DNA from: Bdellovibrionales bacterium
GTDB lineage: Bacteria > Bdellovibrionota > Bdellovibrionia > Bdellovibrionales > UBA1609
Length of the DNA: 48,899 bases
Assembly: GCA_007121385.1 (NCBI GenBank)
Contig: SKLV01000059.1
Location: forward strand, 1 to 48,899
Direction: 5' to 3'
Within the stretch, counting starts at the first letter, position 1. Every line of letters starts with the position of its first letter. This document shows positions 5,287 to 48,899 of the stretch, one piece after another. Made by a program: the position numbers and the translations under genes. The notes beneath the pieces were generated by a model. The model was given only the letters and a program-made list of their open reading frames with translations. It did no database searches and was not told the DNA's origin.

Positions 5287-8081
5287 TGAAGCTCTCTCAC
5301 TCTTTCTTCAAGGGTGTAGGCCTCAATAAGGTCTCCCACTTTAATATCATTAAAGTTTTCGATGCCAATTCCGCACTCATAACCACTTTGTACTTCTTTG
5401 ACATCATCTTTAAACCGTCTCAGGCTACCCACTTTACCCTCATAGACCACTCGGCCATCACGCACCAGGCGCAGAAGGTGATTGCGGGAGATTTTTCCAT
5501 CCACCACAGAGCAGCCGGCGATCGTCCCCATTTTGGGCACCACGAAGGTCTCTCGCACTTCAGCTCGCCCCTGAGCCTCCTCCACCACATCGGGACTGAG
5601 CAGCCCTGACATGGCTTTCTTAAGATCATCGATGAGCTCATAGATAATGGTGTAGCATTTGATTTCAATGTTCTTATCTTTGGCAAGCCGCTGCGCCCCT
5701 CCATCGGGACGCACATTAAAGCCCACCACCAGAGCCTGAGCTGTGCTGGCAAGTAAGACATCGCTTTCAGAAACCGCTCCCACAGCTGAGTGAATCAATT
5801 TGACCTTCACTTCCTCTGTGGCCAGTTTTTCCACCATTCCCTTGATGGCCTCAATACTTCCGGCCACATCGGCCTTGAGAACCATGGCCAGCTCTTTAAC
5901 ATCTCCTGATTTGAGTTTTGCAAAAATCTGGTCCAGGGACATCTTGGAGTTGGGTGTCTCCTCGGCCACCTTTGCGGCTTTTCGCTTTTCCGCCACTTCA
6001 CGGGCGGCTTCCTCACTTTTCACCACATCAAAGCGATCTCCGGCCTGAGGAGTTTCTGGCAGCCCCATAATCTCTACAGGCTCTCCAGGTCCCACTGACT
6101 TTACAGTCTCTCTCCGGTCGTTGAGCATACTGCGGACTCGACCGGCCACAGTTCCTGCCACCAAATCTTGTCCAATGGTCAGAGTTCCCTCTCTGACCAG
6201 CAGGGTGGCCACACAGCCTCGTCCTTTTTCCATTCGACTCTCAATGACAGTGCCTGACGCCGACCTCTTGGGGTTGGCTTTGAGCTCCAGGATTTCGGCC
6301 ACCACCAGAACCTGTTCGAGAAGTTCCGTAATGCCCTCATTTTTAAGGGCTGAAACTTCGCAAAAGATCGTGGTCCCTCCCCACTCCTCAGGCACCAACT
6401 CGTATTCAGCCAGTTGCTGCTTGATCCGATCCACATTGGCTCCGGGCTTGTCAATTTTATTGACGGCCACAACAATGGGTACATCGGCCGCTTTGGCATG
6501 ATTGATGGCCTCCGCGGTTTGGGGCATAACTCCGTCATCGGCAGCCACCACAATGATGACCACATCGGTGACATGGGCCCCTCTCGCCCGCATAGCGGTA
6601 AAGGCCTCGTGACCGGGGGTATCAATAAAAGTCACTTTTTGCCCAGAGTCCAGGTTCACCGAGTAGGCACCTATATGCTGAGTAATTCCACCAGCCTCCC
6701 CAGAAACCACATTCGTACGACGAATGGAGTCCAAAAGAGTTGTCTTGCCATGGTCCACATGACCCATCACCGTCACCACGGGAGGTCGGGGCTGAAGCTC
6801 GGCCTGGATGTCGCCAAAAGCCAGCCCCTCAATCACTTCGTCCACACTGCGCTCAAGATTTTGAGCTTCAAAGCCGAAATCGGGGACCACCAAGGCCACG
6901 GTATCAAAATCCAGATCCGTGTTCATATTGGCCATAACCCCCAATGCCATCAGTTTCTTCATCAGCTCCGGCACCTTTAAGCCCATTTGTTGGGCCAACT
7001 CGCTGAGCTTAATACTTCCATAGACCTTGACCATCCGCTTTGAGGCCTTAGGGGTGGTGATCATGGTCTTTTTAGCCTCTCGACCCACCTGCAAGCGCTT
7101 CTTTTTGGGCTGAAAAATCACTTCGCGCTTGCGAAACTCCGTGGCTGAGAAGTGCTGTACGGGCTCCTCTTTACCCCCTCCAACACCAGGCTTCTTTTTA
7201 ATGCCGAACTTATCATCTCGAGCCTTTTTCTCAGCATAGGGATCTACGGCGGGTTCCAAGTCCATACTGGGAGCGGCAAAAAAGCCTGTGCGCAAGTTGC
7301 GCGGGGCTGAACGAGAGCCACGGGCCGCCAGTCCTCCGGCAGACCCCGCACCTCCGGCCTGAGCCCCAGCCCCAGCGGCGGCACTCCCAGGAGCCCCACC
7401 CCCTCTCGGCGAGGAGACCGGCATCACTCGACGCAAATCCATTCTCCCCACAATGTTGCCGCGAGGCCGAGCCACAGGAGCGGCCCCCTCTCCTGTTGCC
7501 CCGGACTCAAGCCGACCAGGTGCAGAGGAAATAGGGACTGCAGTGCTCTCAGCTTCGGAGCTCACTCCACCTCGTGCTGGGGAGTCGGTATAGCCCTCTG
7601 CTATTTCTGAAGACCCTTGCTCTTCAGCGGCAAGGGCTGCAGCCTCCTCAGCCGCCTTGGCTGCCTCTTGAGCTTCCTCAGCCGCCTTAGCAGCAGCCTG
7701 AGCTGCGGCTTCAGCCGCATCCTGGTTCTTCTCTAGGGCACCTCCCTTACGACGAATCACCGCTTTAGTCTTTTTGCGCACTGTCTTTTTGGCCGGACTC
7801 ACTCCACCATCTGGGGCCGCTTTTTTGACCGTCTTTTTCTTAGCCTTTGACGCCGACTCAGCAGCTTTCTTTTTAGCCACTTTCTTTTTGGTAGCTTTTT
7901 TAGCCCCTTGAGCCGCTTGAGCCTGGCCCTCCAGTCGAGAGCGAATCTCCTTCATCATCTCCTCGTCCAAAGAGGCCATGTGGCTCTTGACCGGGAGCTG
8001 CCACTCACGAATCTTATCCATGAGAGCCAGTGTTTCTAAACCCAGCTCTTTGGCGAACTCAAAAACCTTTAACTGACTCAC
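5283..8081 (-). CDS. infB: Translation initiation factor IF-2
   Basis: GTPase that brings initiator fMet-tRNA to the 30S subunit and promotes 50S joining; 932 residues. The N-terminal IF2N domain ([20 protein letters not shown]) is followed by a long low-complexity linker, Lys/Ala-rich then Gly/Ala/Pro-rich (about residues 55-270). A second IF2N-like domain ([20 protein letters not shown]) precedes the G domain. G1 is GHVDHGKTT at about residues 439-447, then DTPGHEAF (G3) and NKIDKP (G4). Domains II-IV follow, ending [16 protein letters not shown]. The start is GTG at 8081, overlapping the nusA stop by 4 bases (GTGA). The long linker produces spurious antisense frames. Confidence 0.98.
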
Positions 8082-9487
8082 TCAACCTCCTCTGCACCCT
8101 CAGCGGCTTTTAGCTGAGCCATCTCTTCCTTCAAACGCTGGTCAGCCTGAGTTTTGGCATCACCCTCAGCGGCTTTTTCTTTTGTTTTTACAGTGGGCAT
8201 TTGAGGGATTTCCTTGCCCTCAGCCTCATAGCTGGCCAAGAGAGCTTTAGCTTCATCAATGAGCTTCTGCCCCTTTTCCTCTGAATCGTAGCCGGGAATG
8301 GCCATCACTGACGTCAACTCTGCATTGGCCAACTCCACAAAGCTGGCGAAACCAGACTGATAGATGTTTTGCGCCATAGTTTGGGTCATGCCAGGCAGAA
8401 GCATTAAGTTAAAAATGGCCTCCGCCGTCTTCATGGCCTGACTGGATTCAGAAGTAATATCTAATTTCCAGCGGGAAAGCTTGGCCGCCAAACGCACATT
8501 TTGGCCCTTTTTTCCAATCGCCAAACTCAGCTGGTGGTCTGGCACGATGATCTCCATTTCATGATTGGTCTCATCCACCAAAACCTTGGAGATCTCAGCC
8601 GGAGCCAAAGCATTGCAAACAAAGCGAGCTGGGTCCTCTTCCCAATTGACAATGTCAATCTTCTCGCCCCTCAGCTCCTGAACGATCGTTTGCACCCGGG
8701 AGCCCTTCATGCCTACGCAGGCCCCCACTGGGTCCACGGCCGCATCTTTACTACGCACGGCAATCTTGGCTCTCTGTCCAGGCTCTCGGGCCGCTGCCAT
8801 AATTTCAACGATCCCATCGTAGATCTCTGGAACCTCCATTTCAAATAACTTCACCAAATAGCGCTCATCAGCTCGTGACATAATAATCTGAGGACCTCGA
8901 GTCGTCTGACGAACATCGGCGATGTAACCCTGAATTCGATCCCCCGGTTTGTAGGCTTCACCAGGGATCTGCTCTCGCGGGGGAATGTAGGCCTCGGTTC
9001 GTCCCAAATCCACGACAATAGCCCCTCTTTCCACTCGCCGGGCAATCCCTGAAGCGATCTCTCCCTTGCGCTGTTCAAATTCAGCAAAAATAATATCGCG
9101 CTCAGCATCTCTCACTTTTTGGGTAATGATCTGCTTGGCTGTTTGCGCAGCAATGCGCCCCAAGTCTTTGGTCTCCAATTTGATCCCAATGGAGTCGTTG
9201 ACCTGGGCATCGGGATCCAGCTCCAAAGCTTCTGATAATTTAATTTCAATTTCCTCGTCTATGTAGTTTTCATCCTCAACAACCTCTTTAAACTCATAGA
9301 GTTCAATCTCACCCGTTTCCTCATTGTACTGGGCCTCTATATCCCTATAGGTCCCGTACTTCCGCCGAGCCGCCAGAAGCATACCTTGAATCACAGCATC
9401 AATGACAACTTGCTTCTCTATGCCTTTGTCTTTTCCCACTTGCTCGATAATACGGCTCAAATCCGAAAAAATATTCTCTGCAGCCAT
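8078..9487 (-). CDS. nusA: Transcription termination/antitermination factor NusA
   Basis: Binds RNA polymerase and nascent RNA to control pausing, termination and antitermination. Its 469 residues comprise the NusA N-terminal domain (1-130), an S1 domain (GAIVVDLGRTEAYIPPREQIPGE region), two KH domains (VGACVGMKGSRVQTIVQELRGEKIDIV and SLAIGKKGQNVRLAAKLSRW) and a short C-terminal helix-hairpin-helix-like repeat (LPGMTQTMAQNIYQSGF) before an acidic Glu-rich tail. It starts at ATG 9487 with an AGGAAAG site, 97 bp after rimP. No ylxR-type gene sits between nusA and infB, unlike in many Gram-positives. Confidence 0.97.
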   Translation of the reverse strand: MAAENIFSDLSRIIEQVGKDKGIEKQVVIDAVIQGMLLAARRKYGTYRDIEAQYNEETGEIELYEFKEVVEDENYIDEEIEIKLSEALELDPDAQVNDSIGIKLETKDLGRIAAQTAKQIITQKVRDAERDIIFAEFEQRKGEIASGIARRVERGAIVVDLGRTEAYIPPREQIPGEAYKPGDRIQGYIADVRQTTRGPQIIMSRADERYLVKLFEMEVPEIYDGIVEIMAAAREPGQRAKIAVRSKDAAVDPVGACVGMKGSRVQTIVQELRGEKIDIVNWEEDPARFVCNALAPAEISKVLVDETNHEMEIIVPDHQLSLAIGKKGQNVRLAAKLSRWKLDITSESSQAMKTAEAIFNLMLLPGMTQTMAQNIYQSGFASFVELANAELTSVMAIPGYDSEEKGQKLIDEAKALLASYEAEGKEIPQMPTVKTKEKAAEGDAKTQADQRLKEEMAQLKAAEGAEEVE

Positions 9488-9584
9488 CTTTCCTGTTCCC
9501 CTTCTAAAAAACTGTCTTTAAAAGATAAGTATCCAATTTCAACTCAACATTCTCCAAGCTCAAACTCTTTGGCTCACCCTGGCT

Positions 9585-10115
9585 TTAAAGCCTACCTCTT
9601 TTGCCCTTGGTTTTTTTGTCCTCACTCCCGGGAAATACAAAAAGAGTATTGGCCTTTTGCACTGAACTCATCGGCAAGGTCCAAGTTTGCCCCTCTCCTT
9701 GGAGAACCAGATTCTCCCCCTGCAAGTCCGTCAAAACACCCCTGAGACTTTTAATTTTACGCCCCTCAGGAGAGCTCAGGGGCTCAGTCAATTTGACCTG
9801 AACACTCTGCCCCAAAGCCTTACTGAAGTGCCAAGCTTGGCGCAGAGGGCGCTCCAGACCGGGGCTGGAAATCTCCAATTCGTAAGCCTGGTCGAGCAGG
9901 TCCTCCGCGTCCAAAAGCAGATTCAGACAACGAGACACATTGGCACAGTCATCGATGCTGACCGGCTGAGTTTCCCGATCGATATAAACTCGAAGCACGG
10001 GTCCACTGCGCCCACCTACGTACTCCCAATCATAGAGTTCGCAGCCCTCCTGACGACTCGCCTCTTCGGCCAGCTTCTGGATTTTCCCTTTAATTTCAGG
10101 ACCTAACGAAAACAA
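9585..10115 (-). CDS. rimP: Ribosome maturation factor RimP
   Basis: A 176-residue 30S assembly factor at the head of the nusA-infB operon, as in most bacteria. Family motifs are present: GCELYDWEYVGGRSGPVLRVYID, then SIDDCANVSRCLNLLLDAED and YELEISSPGLERPL. A C-terminal SH3-like domain (LRGVLTDLQGENLVL) and a basic tail (KKTKGKRGRL) follow. No ATG suits the N-terminus; TTG at 10115 follows GGGAG at about 10-nt spacing and gives the expected length. Upstream lies the terminator of the preceding unit, so the operon promoter should fall within 10116-10198; I see no convincing -35/-10 pair there. Confidence 0.93.
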   Translation of the reverse strand: MFSLGPEIKGKIQKLAEEASRQEGCELYDWEYVGGRSGPVLRVYIDRETQPVSIDDCANVSRCLNLLLDAEDLLDQAYELEISSPGLERPLRQAWHFSKALGQSVQVKLTEPLSSPEGRKIKSLRGVLTDLQGENLVLQGEGQTWTLPMSSVQKANTLFVFPGSEDKKTKGKRGRL

Positions 10116-10199
10116 AAACTTTTTTCTCCCGAGCCTCTCAAGCCGGACCCTCAGTTGAGAAGGTCAATCCAAGGCCCTCAATTGTACAACTCAATAATA

Positions 10200-10224
10200 A
10201 AAAAGGGCCCATTAGGCCCTTTTT
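10200..10224 (-). terminator. Rho-independent terminator of the acetyltransferase unit
   Basis: A 10-bp stem (AAAAAGGGCC against GGCCCTTTTT) with a 5-nt loop. On the minus strand it is followed by a T-rich run ending TTATTATT. It lies downstream of the acetyltransferase gene and upstream of rimP, so it separates the two transcription units. Confidence 0.85.
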
Positions 10225-10292
10225 GATATCTCAAACAGACATCTCAGATCTTTTGGGAGATACCAGAATATCATTCTTAGCGCAAGGCTTAA

Positions 10293-10769
10293 TCAGTAGG
10301 CATACAAAATCGCATCCCCTCCATCCCGGTAGTAGCGACGGCGCACTCCACAGCGGCGAAAGCCGAGTTTTTCATAAAGCATCTGAGCCGGCCCATTCCC
10401 ACTGTGCACCTCTAGCCAGACTGAGCTATGGGGATAAAGGTTCTGACAAAGGTGATTAAGAAGAGCTTCCATAAGGCCCCTTCCCTGGTGATTAACGCAG
10501 GTTGCCAAAACCATGATGTCCAAGCCATCCATAAGTCGATGGTAGAGGATAAAGGACACCAACTCTCCCTGAGCCCAAAGACAGAGAGACTCCCCCCTCT
10601 CGGCCACTTGGGTCAGCTGCTCCAAGCTCCAGCTCCCGCCAATGGGATCTTTTGCCGATGCATAGACGCCTTCAAGAAGTCGATGCATGGCCTGAATTCG
10701 GCTGAGGGGAGCCCCTGTCCCCCGCTCCATCTGCCCATCAAAGTCCCACAAGGTAGTTTTGCACTTCAT
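10293..10769 (-). CDS. GNAT N-acetyltransferase, RimI-like
   Basis: A GCN5-family acetyltransferase of 158 residues using acetyl-CoA. The acetyl-CoA loop is NHQGRGLMEALL (Q/R-x-x-G-x-G/A type), followed by SVWLEVHSGNGPAQMLYEKLGFRRCGVRRRYYRDGGDAILY. That is the hallmark C-terminal pattern of RimI-type ribosomal-protein alanine acetyltransferases (LEVRxxNxxAxxLYxxxGFxxxxxRxxYY). Its real substrate is unknown. The frame opens at ATG 10769, overlapping the upstream gene by 32 bp, but an internal ATG at 10730 lies just past that gene's stop and is an equally good start. It is the last gene before a strong terminator. Confidence 0.8.
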   Translation of the reverse strand: MKCKTTLWDFDGQMERGTGAPLSRIQAMHRLLEGVYASAKDPIGGSWSLEQLTQVAERGESLCLWAQGELVSFILYHRLMDGLDIMVLATCVNHQGRGLMEALLNHLCQNLYPHSSVWLEVHSGNGPAQMLYEKLGFRRCGVRRRYYRDGGDAILYAY

Positions 10770-11475
10770 ACTTGGTTTTTAATACCTCAAACCAGTCGGC
10801 GAGCCTTCTCTCCATATGCTGGGCCCCCAGAGCTCGCTTAATATTCTCTTTAAAGTCACTAAAGGGCAGATCGCCAAAGCGATGGCGATGGGCTTCAAAA
10901 TAGGCCTTGGCCTCCGCATCAGTGATCAACACCAGAGAGGAGTCTGTACGAAATCGGACAAACTCAGTGGCCTTAAGCTTGACCTCCAATAGTTCTCTCA
11001 GTTCCTCTTGAGAGGCCTGCAAGCCCGACCAGGTTTGCGAGCCAGTCAATCGCTGGGTGACCAGTTCCAAACTCCCTGGAATATCCACCACTTTCACCCG
11101 GCCAATATCAAAGGCCTGAGACTCTAGATAAATGGCCCTCTCCAGCAGGGCCCGCCCCACCTCTTGAACGAAGGTTGGAGAGTCGAGAGGTATAAGCTCA
11201 AGCCCTCTTAATCTGCGCAAATCGGCAGGAGAGGAGGCTCTGAGGGCCTCATCCAAAAGCCGATAAATCTGCACTTCTCGCGAGGTGACGACATGTTCAG
11301 CCACTCTCCCCACTGAAGTCGATTCAATCACCTGAGCCATAGCCTCCCGAGGACTCCCCAAAACCATAAACAAGCTCCAAAGGACAGCCCATCCCAAGGA
11401 CAAAGTGGCCGGCTGAGAACGAAGCTTTTGTCTTTTTTCAGGCCGGCAATAAACTGGGAAAATCTTACTGATCAT
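10738..11475 (-). CDS. SurA N-terminal-like periplasmic chaperone-type protein, no PPIase domain
   Basis: A 245-residue protein with a basic start, a hydrophobic segment (LGWAVLWSLFMVLG) and an AMA-Q cleavage site at about residue 47, indicating export to the periplasm. The mature part begins VGRVAEHVVTSREVQIYRLLDEAL, which resembles the first strand and helix of SurA/PpiC-type proteins (VxxEVITxxEV). It ends with a helix typical of the SurA N-domain (TDAEAKAYFEAHRHRFGDLPFSDFKENIKRAL...). No parvulin domain is visible. Likely role, by inference: helping outer-membrane protein folding or assembly. It starts at ATG 11475 and overlaps the acetyltransferase gene. Confidence 0.55.
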   Translation of the reverse strand: MISKIFPVYCRPEKRQKLRSQPATLSLGWAVLWSLFMVLGSPREAMAQVIESTSVGRVAEHVVTSREVQIYRLLDEALRASSPADLRRLRGLELIPLDSPTFVQEVGRALLERAIYLESQAFDIGRVKVVDIPGSLELVTQRLTGSQTWSGLQASQEELRELLEVKLKATEFVRFRTDSSLVLITDAEAKAYFEAHRHRFGDLPFSDFKENIKRALGAQHMERRLADWFEVLKTKYEVQNYLVGL

Positions 11476-11513
11476 GCCTCAGAATTGTAAGACGAAGCTT
11501 TTGCGAGGGCAAA

Positions 11514-11548
11514 GAAAAAACCGGGCTTAGAGTTTTCTCCAAGCCCGG
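11514..11548 (-). terminator. Rho-independent terminator of the outer-membrane barrel gene
   Basis: An 8-bp GC-rich stem (CCGGGCTT 11521-11528 with AAGCCCGG 11541-11548) and 12-nt loop. Read on the minus strand it is followed by TTTTTTCTTT, a classical U-tract. It lies 45 bp after the barrel gene and before the SurA-like gene. Confidence 0.88.
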
Positions 11549-11593
11549 CTCACAGAGGGTGACGGGGATCATAAACAACAAAGGGATTCTTAA

Positions 11594-12910
11594 CTAAAAG
11601 TGTATTTTGCCGTTGAGAGTCCAAGAGTAGTAACTGAACTCCTCAATGGGAGAGGTGACCGAAGTCGCCCAAAATCTGCGACTGTTCAAGAACTCCGACC
11701 GAGAGTTATTGATCATATTGACCATATACCTGAACTCGGTGCCCAAACTGAAATTATGAGTCACCTTCAAGTCCAGTCCAGCATTAAAGCCCAGGTCAAA
11801 GGCGTTCGAAGAGGCTGTCCGATCATTGGGCCACTGACCATGATGACCGTGATGACCATGGAAAGAACTGGAGCCCCAGAAGAACTGGCGATCACTGTAG
11901 CGTCGATAAGTGTAGCTCGCCACAGCTCCCCCGTAGGGCTGGAAGCTCCCCTTTAAGGGGCTGAACTTGGCCGCCAAAGTGAAGTTGTATTGATCCATTT
12001 CACGAAAGACGGGCCGCTGCCAGAACTCGTTGATCAGAAAATTCGAGTAAAGAAATCCGGCCTCCACCACAAGGCCATTGGGAGACTTGGAGCCCAGGGA
12101 AAAACCGGTAGCCAGCTCACCGGAAACATTGTCCGCATCAAAGTAGTCCGCTAAGCCGATCTCGGCTCCCATGAAGAATCTGCTATTGGCACCAAAGAGC
12201 TGAAAACCGCTATACTCATCACGATATTCAATTCTCTGTTTCTCTGCCGACCGGGAGGACGCTCGCTCCACCTCTTTCTCGATCTCCCGATCGATCTCGG
12301 CCCGGGCACTGACGGGGGAAGCATCATCTCTCACCACCACCACTTGGTGGACAGCTTGACCAGTTGTTTGACTTTGAGTGGCCTGCTGCACTGGGGCCGC
12401 AATAGCACCATAGTCATTGGTCGTGGGAATGGATTGAGCTGGCTCACTACTGAGACGGTTGCCAAAGAGACGTTCGGCCCGTCTCTGCTCATCTTTTAGG
12501 CGAGACTCTTCCAGCTTCTCGACAATTTTTTGCTCGGTTTGAAGCTCAGCTCCCTCACGGGCCCGACGCATCTGACCGGCCTTGGACTCATTGAGAGGTC
12601 TTGCCTCCACATAAGTCATCGGCTGCTGCTGGAAAGCCATCGGCTGCTGTTGGAAAGCCATGGGCTGCTGGGCCTGAGGCACAACCACCTGACCTTGAAG
12701 AGGAGCCACCCGGCGATCCTGGATCTGCATCGCCTGACTGGCCTGGGGCTGAGCGGGTCGCAGTTGAACGACCCCATAGTCCACATCATCTTGATAGCCT
12801 AGATTCAGCTGATTTCCGTAGTCTTGGTAGGCCCAACTTGTCTGGGACATAAGCCCGGAGGCCAGGGCCCCGGTGAGGACAAAAGTAAATCCGTACTTCC
12901 ACTTAAGCAT
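11594..12910 (-). CDS. Outer-membrane beta-barrel protein with Gln-rich repeats, coiled-coil region and His-rich loop
   Basis: A 438-residue protein of unknown function. A signal peptide (MLKWKYGFTFVLTGALASGLMSQTSWA) directs export. Then come a Gln/Pro-rich segment with a PMAFQQQ tandem repeat, a charged helical region rich in Glu/Arg/Lys, and a C-terminal half of alternating amphipathic strands ending in Phe (SWTLNGKIHF), typical of an 8-stranded OmpA/OMP_b-brl-type barrel. A predicted loop near residues 347-357 carries FHGHHGHHGQW, a possible metal-binding site. The start is ATG 12910 because it opens the signal peptide and follows GGGAGAG; the longer open frame upstream is not needed. A terminator follows the gene. 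Confidence 0.75.
   Translation of the reverse strand: MLKWKYGFTFVLTGALASGLMSQTSWAYQDYGNQLNLGYQDDVDYGVVQLRPAQPQASQAMQIQDRRVAPLQGQVVVPQAQQPMAFQQQPMAFQQQPMTYVEARPLNESKAGQMRRAREGAELQTEQKIVEKLEESRLKDEQRRAERLFGNRLSSEPAQSIPTTNDYGAIAAPVQQATQSQTTGQAVHQVVVVRDDASPVSARAEIDREIEKEVERASSRSAEKQRIEYRDEYSGFQLFGANSRFFMGAEIGLADYFDADNVSGELATGFSLGSKSPNGLVVEAGFLYSNFLINEFWQRPVFREMDQYNFTLAAKFSPLKGSFQPYGGAVASYTYRRYSDRQFFWGSSSFHGHHGHHGQWPNDRTASSNAFDLGFNAGLDLKVTHNFSLGTEFRYMVNMINNSRSEFLNSRRFWATSVTSPIEEFSYYSWTLNGKIHF
12617..12670 (-). repeat. 21-bp tandem repeat (2.5 copies) inside the barrel gene
   Basis: Two 21-bp units at 12617-12637 and 12638-12658 differ at one base, and a partial third follows. They encode repeated PMAFQQQ. 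They are in frame, so copy-number change would lengthen or shorten the Gln-rich linker without breaking the gene. Confidence 0.85.
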
Positions 12911-40770: not shown

Positions 40771-43700
40771 ATGACATCTCCTGAGCTTTGCTTAAAAAAA
40801 GAAGCTTCAATCTCGCAAGGGGGGCCTATCTTGGGGTGGAAATACCTGTTTTTAACACTCTGTCTTTCTCTGTCGACTTTGGCTCTCCAGCCCCCCGCTC
40901 AGGCTGTCTCCAATGAAGAGCACCTTTTAGAAACCCTTCTCGCTCGCCTCAGCAAAGGGGAAATGGTTGAGGCTGATGGAGTCCGCTTTATCAGTCACTA
41001 CCGCTTTGATGAGGTTTTTGAGGCCCTTGTCAACGGCTACCACCGGGAGCTGGATCGGGTCCAGGAGCGCAAAGGGGCCCTCAGCCATGAGGAAAATGTG
41101 GCTCTTATTGACCGACTTTCTGAGTACAACACGGCCATTTACACCTTAGGAACTCAGTTTTATCACACCCGCATCAGTGGTTTAGATATTAGGGCTCGGC
41201 GCATTCTCAACCCCCATGTCTATGAGGCTCTGAGCCCCAAGCTCTCAGAAGTCTTCAATACCCTCAAACTTCGCCGCGACCAACTCCCCTCCATGGGCGG
41301 CAGCCTTGTACATCCGGACAAAGCCCGCTCAGCCCCACCGAACAGCCAAAGCCTTGTCAAGGTGGCCGGCTCTATCAATGAGGCCTATCTGGTTCAGTTG
41401 CAGATCGAAAACCGTCTGCGTCAGCCCTATATTCATTTAGAAAACTTGCAGCAGCACTTAGAGAAAAATATCATTGGCCAGCCCGAAGTCATTCAAGCCC
41501 TGATGGACATGGAGAGGCGAGATCTCTTCCACTGGGGACAAAGGACTCGGCCTCAGACCCTGGTTTTTATGGGCATTCCTGGAACAGGAAAGGACACTAG
41601 TGTCTATGCCTATATGGATGCCCTCCATGGGGGAATGAGAGGAGTCGGGCACGACCACATCCACCAGATGAGCACGGCTCGCGACAAGTCAGACCTTTGG
41701 AAAAACTTTGGCTCAGCTCCCGGCTATGTGGGCTCCAATGAACTGCCTGAGTTACTCCGCTTTTTGGTCAAGCACTCCGGTGGACGCTATGCTTTGGAAA
41801 AAACAGAGGGCCGAGGTGGAGAAGAAAGAGTCTATGTGGTGGAAAACAAGGACTGGAGCCCAGGACAAGTCTTTCCCGGCTACTACCCCCCCGAAATGGG
41901 AGCCATTTTTATTAATGAGTTCCACAATTGGTCGAAGGAAGCCAAAGATCTCATCTTGAAGATGGCTCTGAGTGATGGATATTTTCCCATCAATAATCCA
42001 GGCACCAAGGGCGTGGGAAAGATGTATGTTCCTGTGAAGATCTTTATTGCCACTAATGAGGGTCAGGAACTGATTATCCCGGTCGGCCCCAATGGGCTCC
42101 GCACGGGCCCTCCCATGAGCTTTGACAGTATGCTGGCGCGCTACAAGGATGTGCGAAACGACAAGAATCTATTATTAGATTCTCTCAAATACCCCGCAGT
42201 CAACCATGGGGACAGTCCCACCAACTCCGGGGGCATGTCTCCTGAGACTGCCAATCGACTGCCCCTGCACGGCCTGATTATGATGAGGCCCTTGGGCCCG
42301 GAAGACCTGTCTCAGATTCTAGAAATTAAACTGGCTCAGCTGGCTCAAGACTTGGAAATGAACCGAGGGGCTTTTGGCCACTTTAAAGTTCAGTGGACCC
42401 AGGAGCTCAAAGACTTTCTTTTAAGCTATCACTACAACCCTGAGTCCATGGCTCGCCCCCTGGACTACAATATTGAAAGCTTAATTCAGGCCCCCTTTTA
42501 CTCCATGGCAGCAGAGGGCCTGTTTGAAGACTTTCCGGGAAAAAGGCTGATTCAGGTGGGGGTCAAGACCAATGCGGACCGCACCACTTCACTCACAGTG
42601 GACATCGTGGACCAGAGCTCAGGGCAGGCCTTTCACCAGATTGAACGACTGATTCACTTCACCGAACAAGACCGTCCTCAAGAGCCCCTCTCCGATCAAG
42701 AACTGGAAGAACTCAATCAACTTGAAGATAAGTTGAAAGCCCGAGTTTTTGGCGTGGGTCATGTGGCCAAAAAAGTGGCTGAGTCTATTTTAGTGAGTGA
42801 AGAGAGCCGCCGGCAAAAAGTAGATCAGTACAGCGCTACTGAGTCAGCCCGCCTCTTTGCCTTTTTTGGTCTCACTTCCTCAGGAAAAACAGAAATGGCC
42901 AAAGTGATGGCCGACACTATTTACGGTGGAGAGCAACACCTTTTGACCTTGGATTTCTCCCAAGTGGAGTCCATGGAGGACTTAAAAAAGATGGTGCTCG
43001 GGGATAGAGATAAGCTAGGCAATGTGATCCCCTCAGAGTTTATGCTCCACTATGATCGACACAGCGGCCACTGCATTATCGCTCTGGACGAGATCGCCAA
43101 TGCTCCAAAGTGGGTCTTGCGCGCTCTTTACGATGTCTTCAATGAGGCGGTCGTCACTACTTTTTCAGACCGCAAGCCTCGAGTCATGTCAGGGGTCACC
43201 TTGGTTCTCACAGGTAATGCGGGCCAGGAGTGGTACCAAGGAATTCCCCGCTCCCTTCCCGACCATGTGCGCATGAACGCCATGGACGAAATTTACCAGC
43301 ATGCTTTAAAAAATCCTGGAGTGCGGCGGGAGACAGCGGCTCAGTATCTGCCTGAGCCCTTATTGGCGCGAATTGGCGAGAGCAATATCTTCTTTTTCCC
43401 ACCCAACAGCTTTAAGACCATCCGCGAGTTGACTCTACTTAAACTCAGTCAGACCTTAAAGTCCCTGGAGCCTCAGGACAGCAGCCGCGGTTGGAGGTTC
43501 ACTTTTGACAACCAGGAGAGCTTCCAAAAGCTCGTGGAGGTCATCGAACAAGAGGGCTTTGTCATTGATGATCAGGGCCGGTCTGTGACTTGGTATATTA
43601 CCAAAGACTTAAAAAACGCTCTGCGAGCTGAGCTGTTGCGGGAAAAAGTGGCTTCGGGCACTGAGGTGGTGCTGGCAGTGAAAAAACCACGAAAAAATGA

Positions 43701-44622
43701 CCGGGAGATCACCTACACCCTCACATTACCCACCAGCCGAACTCTTGAGGTCTCCTTGCCGCGCAGGGAGAAAGCTGAAGGGCCCCAAATCACTGATGCT
43801 TACCGACTGATGACCGCCTACCACGAGGCCGGCCATGAGCTGGTCCACAGCGTTTTAACCCCTGAGCACCCTTCTCGCTACTTATCTGTGGTGGATGGAG
43901 TGGCTTTTATCGGTGGCCGTCCCATCTACTATGCTGGAGTGGCTGAACATGAACTCAATGTGGCCCTGAACCGAGGTCTAAGCCAAGTGATTGACGAGAT
44001 TGCTGTGTTCACCGCCGGCTATTTGGGCGAACAATTTGTGAGCAAAGGGCAGCAGGACTACGATGGCAAGTCCAACGATATGGAGAGAGCCACCGAGCTG
44101 GCCTACAATGCGATCTTGCGCTGGGGGCTTTCCGACAACTGGGGAAAGGGGGCTATTCCCTCCAGCCTTTCCACCCAAGACTACATCCAAACACTGAGTC
44201 CAGAGAAACGCCACCTTTTGGAGCAGGAAGTGGGCCACCTGATTCGTCAAGGGGAAGAGAGGGCCAAGCTGGTGATCCTGGCCAATCAGGAAGTCTTTTT
44301 AGATTTGGGGAGAACTTTGGCCGAGAAGGGCGAAATGCATAAAGGAGACCTGAAGAAATTCTATGCCTCTCAGCCCTCTCTGGTTCACCCCTTTGATGTG
44401 GCAGCCACTTTGGACCAATGGCCTAAGGACCCAGAGAGTGTGAAGCATCGCCGGGCTGAAATCCGTGAGGATATTCCAAGGCCCAAGCGCATTGCCAAAG
44501 TGGAGAGTCTGATTGCAAAAAAGCGCCAAGCTCAGGTGTCGGAAGTGCCATGGCCCGAAGCTCCTCTTCTCTCTCCCCAGGAGCCAGAGATCAGTGACTG
44601 CCAGGCTCTCCTCACTCAGTGA
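40771..44622 (+). CDS. Two Clp-type AAA+ modules fused to an FtsH-type (M41) zinc peptidase, with N-terminal export signal or anchor
   Basis: A 1283-residue protein I do not recognise as any described single family. Residues about 23-46 are hydrophobic (YLFLTLCLSLSTLAL) and end in a likely AQA cleavage site. A helical region of about 190 residues follows. AAA+ module 1 has Walker A GIPGTGKDTS (~268-277), a weak Walker B FINEF (Asn382-Glu383) and a ClpB D2-like tail (ESMARPLDYNIESLI). Module 2 has GLTSSGKTEMA (~700-710), Walker B IIALDE (Asp773, Glu774) and LLARIGESN in the Arg-finger position. The end has the M41 motif YHEAGH (His1018, His1022) and SNDMERATELAY (third ligand candidate Asp1103), aligned to FtsH. 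Start ATG 40771 after GGAG. Confidence 0.85.
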   Translation: MTSPELCLKKEASISQGGPILGWKYLFLTLCLSLSTLALQPPAQAVSNEEHLLETLLARLSKGEMVEADGVRFISHYRFDEVFEALVNGYHRELDRVQERKGALSHEENVALIDRLSEYNTAIYTLGTQFYHTRISGLDIRARRILNPHVYEALSPKLSEVFNTLKLRRDQLPSMGGSLVHPDKARSAPPNSQSLVKVAGSINEAYLVQLQIENRLRQPYIHLENLQQHLEKNIIGQPEVIQALMDMERRDLFHWGQRTRPQTLVFMGIPGTGKDTSVYAYMDALHGGMRGVGHDHIHQMSTARDKSDLWKNFGSAPGYVGSNELPELLRFLVKHSGGRYALEKTEGRGGEERVYVVENKDWSPGQVFPGYYPPEMGAIFINEFHNWSKEAKDLILKMALSDGYFPINNPGTKGVGKMYVPVKIFIATNEGQELIIPVGPNGLRTGPPMSFDSMLARYKDVRNDKNLLLDSLKYPAVNHGDSPTNSGGMSPETANRLPLHGLIMMRPLGPEDLSQILEIKLAQLAQDLEMNRGAFGHFKVQWTQELKDFLLSYHYNPESMARPLDYNIESLIQAPFYSMAAEGLFEDFPGKRLIQVGVKTNADRTTSLTVDIVDQSSGQAFHQIERLIHFTEQDRPQEPLSDQELEELNQLEDKLKARVFGVGHVAKKVAESILVSEESRRQKVDQYSATESARLFAFFGLTSSGKTEMAKVMADTIYGGEQHLLTLDFSQVESMEDLKKMVLGDRDKLGNVIPSEFMLHYDRHSGHCIIALDEIANAPKWVLRALYDVFNEAVVTTFSDRKPRVMSGVTLVLTGNAGQEWYQGIPRSLPDHVRMNAMDEIYQHALKNPGVRRETAAQYLPEPLLARIGESNIFFFPPNSFKTIRELTLLKLSQTLKSLEPQDSSRGWRFTFDNQESFQKLVEVIEQEGFVIDDQGRSVTWYITKDLKNALRAELLREKVASGTEVVLAVKKPRKNDREITYTLTLPTSRTLEVSLPRREKAEGPQITDAYRLMTAYHEAGHELVHSVLTPEHPSRYLSVVDGVAFIGGRPIYYAGVAEHELNVALNRGLSQVIDEIAVFTAGYLGEQFVSKGQQDYDGKSNDMERATELAYNAILRWGLSDNWGKGAIPSSLSTQDYIQTLSPEKRHLLEQEVGHLIRQGEERAKLVILANQEVFLDLGRTLAEKGEMHKGDLKKFYASQPSLVHPFDVAATLDQWPKDPESVKHRRAEIREDIPRPKRIAKVESLIAKKRQAQVSEVPWPEAPLLSPQEPEISDCQALLTQ

Positions 44623-47986: not shown

Positions 47987-48899
47987 TTGAATTTCGGTCG
48001 TGGAGGAGTATTCAAAACGCTAAGGGTCTGGTGGACCCTCAGCCTGGTCTTCGGCCTGGTCGCCTGCGGTGGTCAACCCACCGAAGACATTGAGTTTGTG
48101 GAGAGCCCTCCAACCACCACCCCAGATGTGCCCCCTGGACCTCCGGCCCCCTCCATTCCACGACCTGTTTTGACAAGCATTAATCCCACCGGTCCTGCTA
48201 ATAATAACGAACCCACTTTATTTGGAGCAGCCACTCCTGGCTCCACAGTCCAGATCTTTCGCAACAGCTCTTGCAGTCTGCTGGTGGCCACAACTTTGGC
48301 CGATGAAGAGGGGGACTTTTCCTCGACAGTGACTGTCCCAGACAACAGCATCACCACATTCTTTGCCCGGGCCAGCTTGGACGGGGTCTCTTCCCTTTGC
48401 TCCACCAGTTCTTTGACCTATGTGGAGGACTCCCTGGCTCTGCCGCCCACTGGCCTTAACACCTCCCCTTTAAGTCCAGCCAACAACAACAGCCCACAAG
48501 TGCTCGGCACCACCGAGCCCTTGGCGACAGTGGCTCTGTATTCGGATTCCAATTGCTCTGTGGATTTGGCCTCCGGCAGCGCTGATGAATCCGGCCAGTT
48601 TGCCATCTCCATCAATGTGGCCGACGACAGCACCACCTCCATCTTCGCTCAAGTCACTGACCTGGCGGGCAATGTTTCCTCTTGCAGCACGACTCCCTTG
48701 GTCTATGTGGAGGACTCCACTCCTCCCGTGGTGCCCACTCTGACTGCCACCAACCCGGCCAGCCCCGCCAACAACAGCAACCCCCAAGTGCTGGGCTCCA
48801 CCGAAGCCCTGGCCGCAGTGGCCCTCTTCTCTGACGCCACTTGCACCACCCTTCTCGCCTCGGGCAGTGCGGATGGCTCTGGGAACTTTGCCATCCCCA
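47987..48899 (+). CDS. Lipoprotein with tandem Ig-like repeats (partial, runs off the window)
   Basis: An open frame of at least 304 codons with no stop before the edge. It starts with TTG 47987 behind AGGGAGGAG and has a lipobox ending VFGLVACG. A Pro-rich spacer (PPTTTPDVPPGPPAPSIPRP) follows, then repeats of about 94-96 residues. Each unit has a PANN[NS]xPxxxG start, a GSADxSGxF core and a VYVEDS end, a pattern of bacterial Ig-like (Big) domains. Two Cys per unit probably form disulfides (unit 2: NC and SSC). Long repetitive surface proteins of this kind often act in adhesion; target unknown. It is divergent from the CheY-like operon. Confidence 0.8.
   Translation, partial: MNFGRGGVFKTLRVWWTLSLVFGLVACGGQPTEDIEFVESPPTTTPDVPPGPPAPSIPRPVLTSINPTGPANNNEPTLFGAATPGSTVQIFRNSSCSLLVATTLADEEGDFSSTVTVPDNSITTFFARASLDGVSSLCSTSSLTYVEDSLALPPTGLNTSPLSPANNNSPQVLGTTEPLATVALYSDSNCSVDLASGSADESGQFAISINVADDSTTSIFAQVTDLAGNVSSCSTTPLVYVEDSTPPVVPTLTATNPASPANNSNPQVLGSTEALAAVALFSDATCTTLLASGSADGSGNFAIP
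48173..48899 (+). repeat. Tandem Ig-like repeat array, period 282-288 bp, two and a half units seen
   Basis: The Asn-rich landmark after PA/SPAN recurs at 48200, 48482 and 48770, spacings of 282 and 288 bp. Units 2 and 3 are similar at DNA level around AACAAC...CAAGTGCT, so recombination could change copy number. The array continues past the window. Confidence 0.85.

Follow-up and report, generated by a model that had tools for sequence, protein, structure and literature searches.

Can Clp-type motors be joined to an FtsH-type peptidase on a single chain, and where would such a machine work? This question is raised by a gene on contig SKLV01000059.1 (assembly GCA_007121385.1) of a Bdellovibrionales bacterium, in a stretch of 48,899 nucleotides referred to below as the window. 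The original prediction had read in it a protein of 1283 residues in which two AAA+ modules of the Clp/Hsp100 kind precede an M41 peptidase, and this reading, with both modules of HCLR type, was borne out by an intact open reading frame (ORF), Pfam, profiles, fold comparison and trees. The ORF runs uninterrupted from the ATG at 40771 to a stop codon ending at 44622 (Table 1). Pfam matched Peptidase_M41 at residues 1007-1195 (1e-16), AAA_2 at 696-824 (3e-10) and ClpB_D2-small at 508-587 (4e-9), with a further weak match to Torsin at residues 222-286, within the first module (AAA1). In NCBIfam, every match fell far under its cut-off (ClpB 89 bits vs 1232, FtsH equivalog 61 vs 600). Beyond the original prediction, we found a predicted signal peptide, a cysteine-poor body, a tail with a lone cysteine, unusual residues in the nucleotide site of AAA1, and a wider family in which the number of AAA modules ranges from one to three. 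We therefore consider it somewhat probable, judging from sequence features, that the protein is a Sec-exported, self-contained, ATP-driven unfoldase-protease.

The two AAA modules had been claimed to be of the ClpB D2 kind and not FtsH-type, in agreement with our profile searches, structure comparison and trees. Residues 222-1205 were predicted with a pLDDT (predicted local distance difference test) of 85, and the AAA part of the model resembled double-ring Clp proteins (Z of about 26 to ClpC1). The modules matched nucleotide-binding domain 2 (NBD2) of ClpB or Skd3, the match of AAA1 being ClpB NBD2; the D2-type small domain in AAA1 was seen by Pfam as well as in the fold. In the AAA tree both modules fell outside the Clp D1 clade: AAA1 formed a clade of its own, and the second module (AAA2) grouped with Clp-type modules as sister to the last AAA of a related family, family B. 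This tree was made by a quick method and has moderate support; because an off-centre motif was used to cut its FtsH rows, it places FtsH only roughly. An FtsH with a diverged AAA was ruled out by profiles and trees. As to the Walker A motifs predicted for both modules, that of AAA2 is canonical, but AAA1 has Asp in place of Ser/Thr. Presumed Arg fingers lie at R496 (AAA1) and R867 (AAA2) and a presumed sensor-2 Arg at R562 (AAA1), the labels for Arg fingers, sensors and pore loops being transferred from known Clp proteins.

The M41 fold is supported by a profile match and by the confident secondary structure of the predicted model. The M41 profile of the family matched solved FtsH structures at 1e-22 over about 196 positions. 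HEAGH and Asp1103 were found at the residues originally given (1018-1022, and within SNDMER at 1101-1106), aligned with the known zinc ligands of FtsH. In the M41 tree the window protein and its orthologs (family A) formed one clade (100/100), separate from the M41 domains of FtsH.

Several known systems resemble parts of this protein. FtsH (MEROPS M41; i-AAA and m-AAA in mitochondria) shares the M41 domain with HExxH and an Asp ligand, on one chain with an AAA motor. However, FtsH has one classic-clade AAA, two membrane segments and a cytoplasmic motor, whereas here we found two Clp-type AAA modules, one predicted signal peptide and no clear second segment; the AAA directly before M41 is not of the classic clade, and AAA2 matches the D2 of ClpB/ClpA/ClpC by profile. 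ClpB/Hsp104, ClpA and ClpC share the two stacked AAA+ modules, an HCLR-type module with a D2 small domain, and the GYVG-type loop, here in AAA1. In contrast to these proteins, both modules are D2-like, and the class I pairing of a classic D1 with an HCLR D2 is absent from the window protein, although family B does have a D1-like module. There is also a peptidase of its own instead of ClpP, and the protein is apparently exported. No Clp N-domain was matched by Pfam before residue 222, where the model is of low to moderate confidence. Skd3 (human CLPB), which works in the mitochondrial intermembrane space, is likewise a ClpB-like AAA+ outside matrix and cytosol with a different N-terminal domain, and it gave a good fold match; it has, however, one AAA, no peptidase, and ATP in its compartment. 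Torsins are Clp-related AAA+ proteins in the lumen of the endoplasmic reticulum, but they are eukaryotic, with a single AAA and no peptidase. Lon also combines an HCLR AAA with a peptidase on one chain; its peptidase is of the serine-lysine type, its AAA is single, and in bacteria it is cytoplasmic. A review of AAA+ proteases places motor and peptidase on one chain in FtsH and Lon only (PMC7226402). Clp motors joined to an FtsH peptidase add a third single-chain plan. No described family with a Clp-type AAA before M41, as the original prediction had supposed, and none with this exact architecture, was found in Pfam, NCBIfam, the PDB or the literature, the last covered mostly without subscription journals, which makes this weak evidence of novelty. 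The proposal of a new class of machine is reasonable for the architecture but not for the chemistry, which is of a known kind: motifs and predicted fold are consistent with an AAA+ protease in general, in which ATP-driven unfolding is coupled to a peptidase chamber.

The same architecture, which the original prediction had proposed to look for in other Bdellovibrionota, recurred there. The closest ortholog, from the same genus, has 71% identity, and about 20 more genomes of the order carry orthologs at 30-41%. A profile search, with a profile built from a smaller alignment and not from the more diverse family-wide one, gave about 25 strong full or near-full matches in 141 Bdellovibrionales genomes and one more in the class. 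Named records with this architecture all come from Bdellovibrionales or Bdellovibrionota metagenome-assembled genomes (MAGs), obtained in separate studies. Comparison with the closest ortholog over 1239 codons revealed purifying selection (synonymous differences, pS, 0.75 vs nonsynonymous, pN, 0.19); by domain, pN was 0.32 in the N-terminal domain and 0.13-0.17 in the others, lowest in M41 and AAA2. In the wider family, one, two or three AAA modules stand ahead of the same kind of M41 domain: family B has a Clp D1-like AAA, a D2-like AAA and a further AAA, other relatives have two, and L035 and L096 show a single recognised AAA. The sister relation of AAA2 with the last family B module suggests that a Clp-type AAA with M41 may be the core unit, to which further AAA modules were added upstream. 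Directly downstream of three-AAA M41 genes we also observed genes for FGE-sulfatase domain proteins with signal peptides (L021:8459-11626, L098:10323-13628). A plasmid search gave, among the matches listed, ClpK only.

Three features of the chain suggested a location outside the cytoplasm. The first was a conserved signal-like segment, with a positive n-region, a hydrophobic core, an AxA-type site and a mostly acidic mature start. A heuristic signal filter was passed by 15 of the 18 family A proteins with a complete N-terminus, including the window protein, and the remaining three (L041, L063, L080) have a hydrophobic N-terminus by eye. There is one such segment only and not the N-terminal pair of FtsH; no clear second membrane segment was seen in family A, where weak stretches occurred only in L046 and L069, and all four FtsH controls from related genomes showed a second transmembrane segment. 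The second was the scarcity of cysteine in the body of the protein: 8 in 24,789 residues of family A and 11 in 17,708 of family B (0.03-0.06%), together 19 in 42,497. Controls had 1.05-1.22% in ORFs of three relatives classed as cytosolic by a heuristic, while the ClpA/ClpB/FtsH proteins of related genomes had 0.35% (p 3e-11). The third was a lone cysteine near the C-terminus, in the pattern C-x-x-hydrophobic-[L/F/Y]. It lay within the last 16 residues in 35/35 proteins, followed at +4 by L, F, Y or W in 33. A CaaX-type lipid signal was ruled out for this tail, because the cysteine stands at differing distances from the end, between 5 and 16 residues. From these features together we infer that the protein is exported from the cytoplasm.

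How might such a protein work? After export and removal of the signal, six subunits would stack into rings of the N-domain, AAA1, AAA2 and M41. AAA1 would hold the substrate through its GYVG loops, AAA2, with canonical Walker motifs, would provide most of the ATP hydrolysis, and the substrate chain would be threaded into the M41 chamber and cleaved. With its Asp and Asn substitutions, AAA1 might either hydrolyse ATP through modified metal binding or serve as a nucleotide-bound clamp, and the tail may act in attachment or sorting. To our knowledge, AAA+ proteases are thought to act only where the cell keeps ATP. We tentatively suggest, with less confidence than for export and unfolding as such, that this is the first bacterial AAA+ protease to act beyond the cytoplasm of its own cell, fuelled by the ATP of another cell such as prey. 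It would belong to a larger group of exported, ATP-dependent enzymes of Bdellovibrionales whose marks are a Sec signal, a body nearly free of cysteine and a C-terminal cysteine tag. These Bdellovibrionales have relatives that are predators of other bacteria, and we speculate that the ATP would come most plausibly from an invaded prey cell, where the enzyme would degrade folded proteins. If the machine does work outside the cell, this raises the testable question of whether these bacteria power exported enzymes with other cells' ATP.

Several observations weigh against an exported, ATP-driven machine. The bacterial periplasm is not known to contain ATP. The Walker residues of AAA1 (GKD in Walker A, NE in Walker B) are non-canonical yet conserved, and AAA2 has no GYVG loop and in most members lacks a sensor-2 Arg at the usual place, so that it is not certain that the protein acts as a motor. 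In a few relatives (L046, L069, L035) the signal is followed by weak hydrophobic stretches, Clp and FtsH proteins are themselves rather cysteine-poor, and the family is patchily distributed among host MAGs, which leaves a role in prey a conjecture.

The strongest rival, which we regard as unlikely, is an exported enzyme that does not depend on ATP: a periplasmic metalloprotease or chaperone with its AAA rings serving as scaffold or nucleotide sensor. The expected lack of ATP outside the cytoplasm, the altered nucleotide site of AAA1 and the missing sensor-2 Arg of AAA2 would all fit, and there is a precedent in ATP-independent Lon-like proteases, one of which is reported to work without ATP-powered unfolding (PMC3391209). 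On the other hand, Walker A and B of AAA2 and both presumed Arg fingers are conserved across members only about 30% identical, and several linked or co-tagged exported proteins also come from ATP-using families. Less likely still is an AAA+ protease in the cytoplasm or anchored in the membrane and facing the cytoplasm, with the N-terminal segment as anchor and an FtsH-like way of working. Bacterial M41 proteases are normally anchored and oriented in this manner, where ATP is present; yet positive charges precede the single segment and mostly acidic residues follow it, a charge distribution that under the positive-inside rule places the remainder of the protein outside, and neither the AxA-type sites nor the extreme scarcity of cysteine favours a cytoplasmic body. 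A functionless pseudo-machine or decaying paralog, as the patchy distribution and the odd Walker residues of AAA1 might suggest, is very improbable in view of the strong purifying selection, the invariant zinc site, the conserved double substitution in AAA1 and full-length copies in many genera. Finally, a chimera of a Clp gene and an FtsH gene, or another mis-join or chance arrangement, conceivable because the assembly is fragmented into 178 contigs, is as good as refuted by the orthologs from separate studies and the selection described above, by the recurrence of the fusion across several families in independent genomes, three of which also have trpS and lpd close to it, and by separate ClpB and FtsH in the same genome.

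Table 1. Features of the AAA-AAA-M41 gene and its product, in window coordinates
Feature	Position	Strand	Residues	Remarks
Whole gene	40771..44622	+	1283 aa	Signal peptide, helical N-domain, AAA1, AAA2, M41 peptidase, C-terminal tail; orthologs with same architecture in about 25 genomes
Sec-type signal peptide (predicted)	40771..40905	+	1-45	Proposed cleavage PPAQA/VSNEE; heuristic filter
Helical N-terminal domain	40906..41433	+	46-221	Predicted helices, low to moderate confidence; fast evolving
AAA1 module	41434..42570	+	222-600	ClpB NBD2-like with small domain; Pfam ClpB_D2-small, fold, own clade in tree
AAA1 Walker A GIPGTGKDT	41572..41598	+		Asp275 where Ser/Thr is normal; GKDT in nearly all members
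AAA1 pore loop GYVG (presumed)	41722..41733	+	318-321	G318, G321 invariant or nearly so
AAA1 Walker B IFINE	41905..41919	+		Asn382 replaces Asp, Glu383 kept; N382, E383 invariant (18-row alignment); one diverged partial copy deviates from NE
AAA2 module	42676..43740	+	636-990	HCLR/ClpB D2-like; AAA_2 and ClpB matches, fold, tree
AAA2 Walker A GLTSSGKT	42868..42891	+		G700, G705, K706 invariant
AAA2 Walker B IIALDE	43075..43092	+		E774 invariant; D773 is Asp or Glu
M41 peptidase domain	43777..44370	+	1003-1200	Pfam 1e-16, FtsH structures by profile 1e-22, single clade 100/100
Zinc-binding HEAGH	43822..43836	+	1018-1022	H1018, E1019, H1022 invariant; aligned to FtsH
Third zinc ligand Asp1103 (GKSNDMER)	44077..44079	+	1103	N1102, D1103 invariant in alignments; aligned to FtsH GASND
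Variable C-terminal tail	44371..44619	+	1201-1283	End SDCQALLTQ; conservation low except final residues
C-terminal lone-cysteine motif CQALL	44599..44613	+	1277-1281	

The gene is isolated in the window, flanked by trpS and by a lipocalin-like gene that are both encoded on the opposite strand, and a scan for promoter and terminator gave nothing informative. Adjacent trpS and a close lpd are common to the window, G006 and G009, a shared neighbourhood that fits vertical descent with losses; these gene names were read from translations. No dedicated partner gene was found for the window gene, and partners recur in some relatives only. In G025, the AAA-AAA-M41 gene is preceded by genes for a PrkA-like AAA (835 aa), a 1783-aa AAA and a SpoVR-DUF444 fusion, each of which begins with a signal-like N-terminus; this cluster just upstream (L088:4762-7266, 7335-12683; L029:4683-7841) consists of normally cytoplasmic partners in an apparently exported form. 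SpoVR-DUF444 fusions with a complete N-terminus in relatives begin with a hydrophobic segment, as observed in several Bdellovibrionales genomes (L160, L162-L167, L170), and in the genome of the window a SpoVR-DUF444 fragment lies where a contig ends (L168). In G034 the neighbour of a family gene encodes a circularly permuted ATP-grasp protein with a signal peptide; at L025:8901-12095 the ATP-grasp gene lies between a family A and a family B gene, and relatives occur in G051 and G058. In G272 the linked gene encodes an AAA-AAA protein with a signal peptide. The genome of the window encodes a second Clp-like AAA+ whose N-terminus is signal-like and whose sequence is free of cysteine beyond residue 60 (L107/L117, G000:C102:300-2588); it has a relative in G035 (L118).

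The lone-cysteine tail occurred on other exported proteins as well. In G041 it was found on a subtilase, a TPR protein and an amidoligase, and on 0/168 cytosolic-class ORFs (p 0.02-0.05). In smaller samples from G034 and G025 the pattern occurred three times, all in cytosolic-class ORFs, of which one, L149, begins in a signal-like manner; the tail as an export tag is therefore suggestive, not proven. It may be a sorting or anchoring signal undescribed so far. Nothing relevant turned up in the literature on bacterial AAA+ proteins that are exported, on SpoVR/PrkA in exported form or on a cysteine signal at the C-terminus, subscription journals being mostly outside the coverage of these searches. 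Exported proteins ending in C-x-x-hydrophobic-[L/F], among them a subtilase, a TPR protein, an amidoligase and proteins of no recognised kind, were observed at L128:1434-2768, L128:7837-8493, L134:17565-18677, L127:4116-5168, L031:10476-11063 and L035:3453-7079. Elsewhere in the window, positions 47987-48898 hold the beginning of an apparently exported repeat-unit protein, truncated by the window end.

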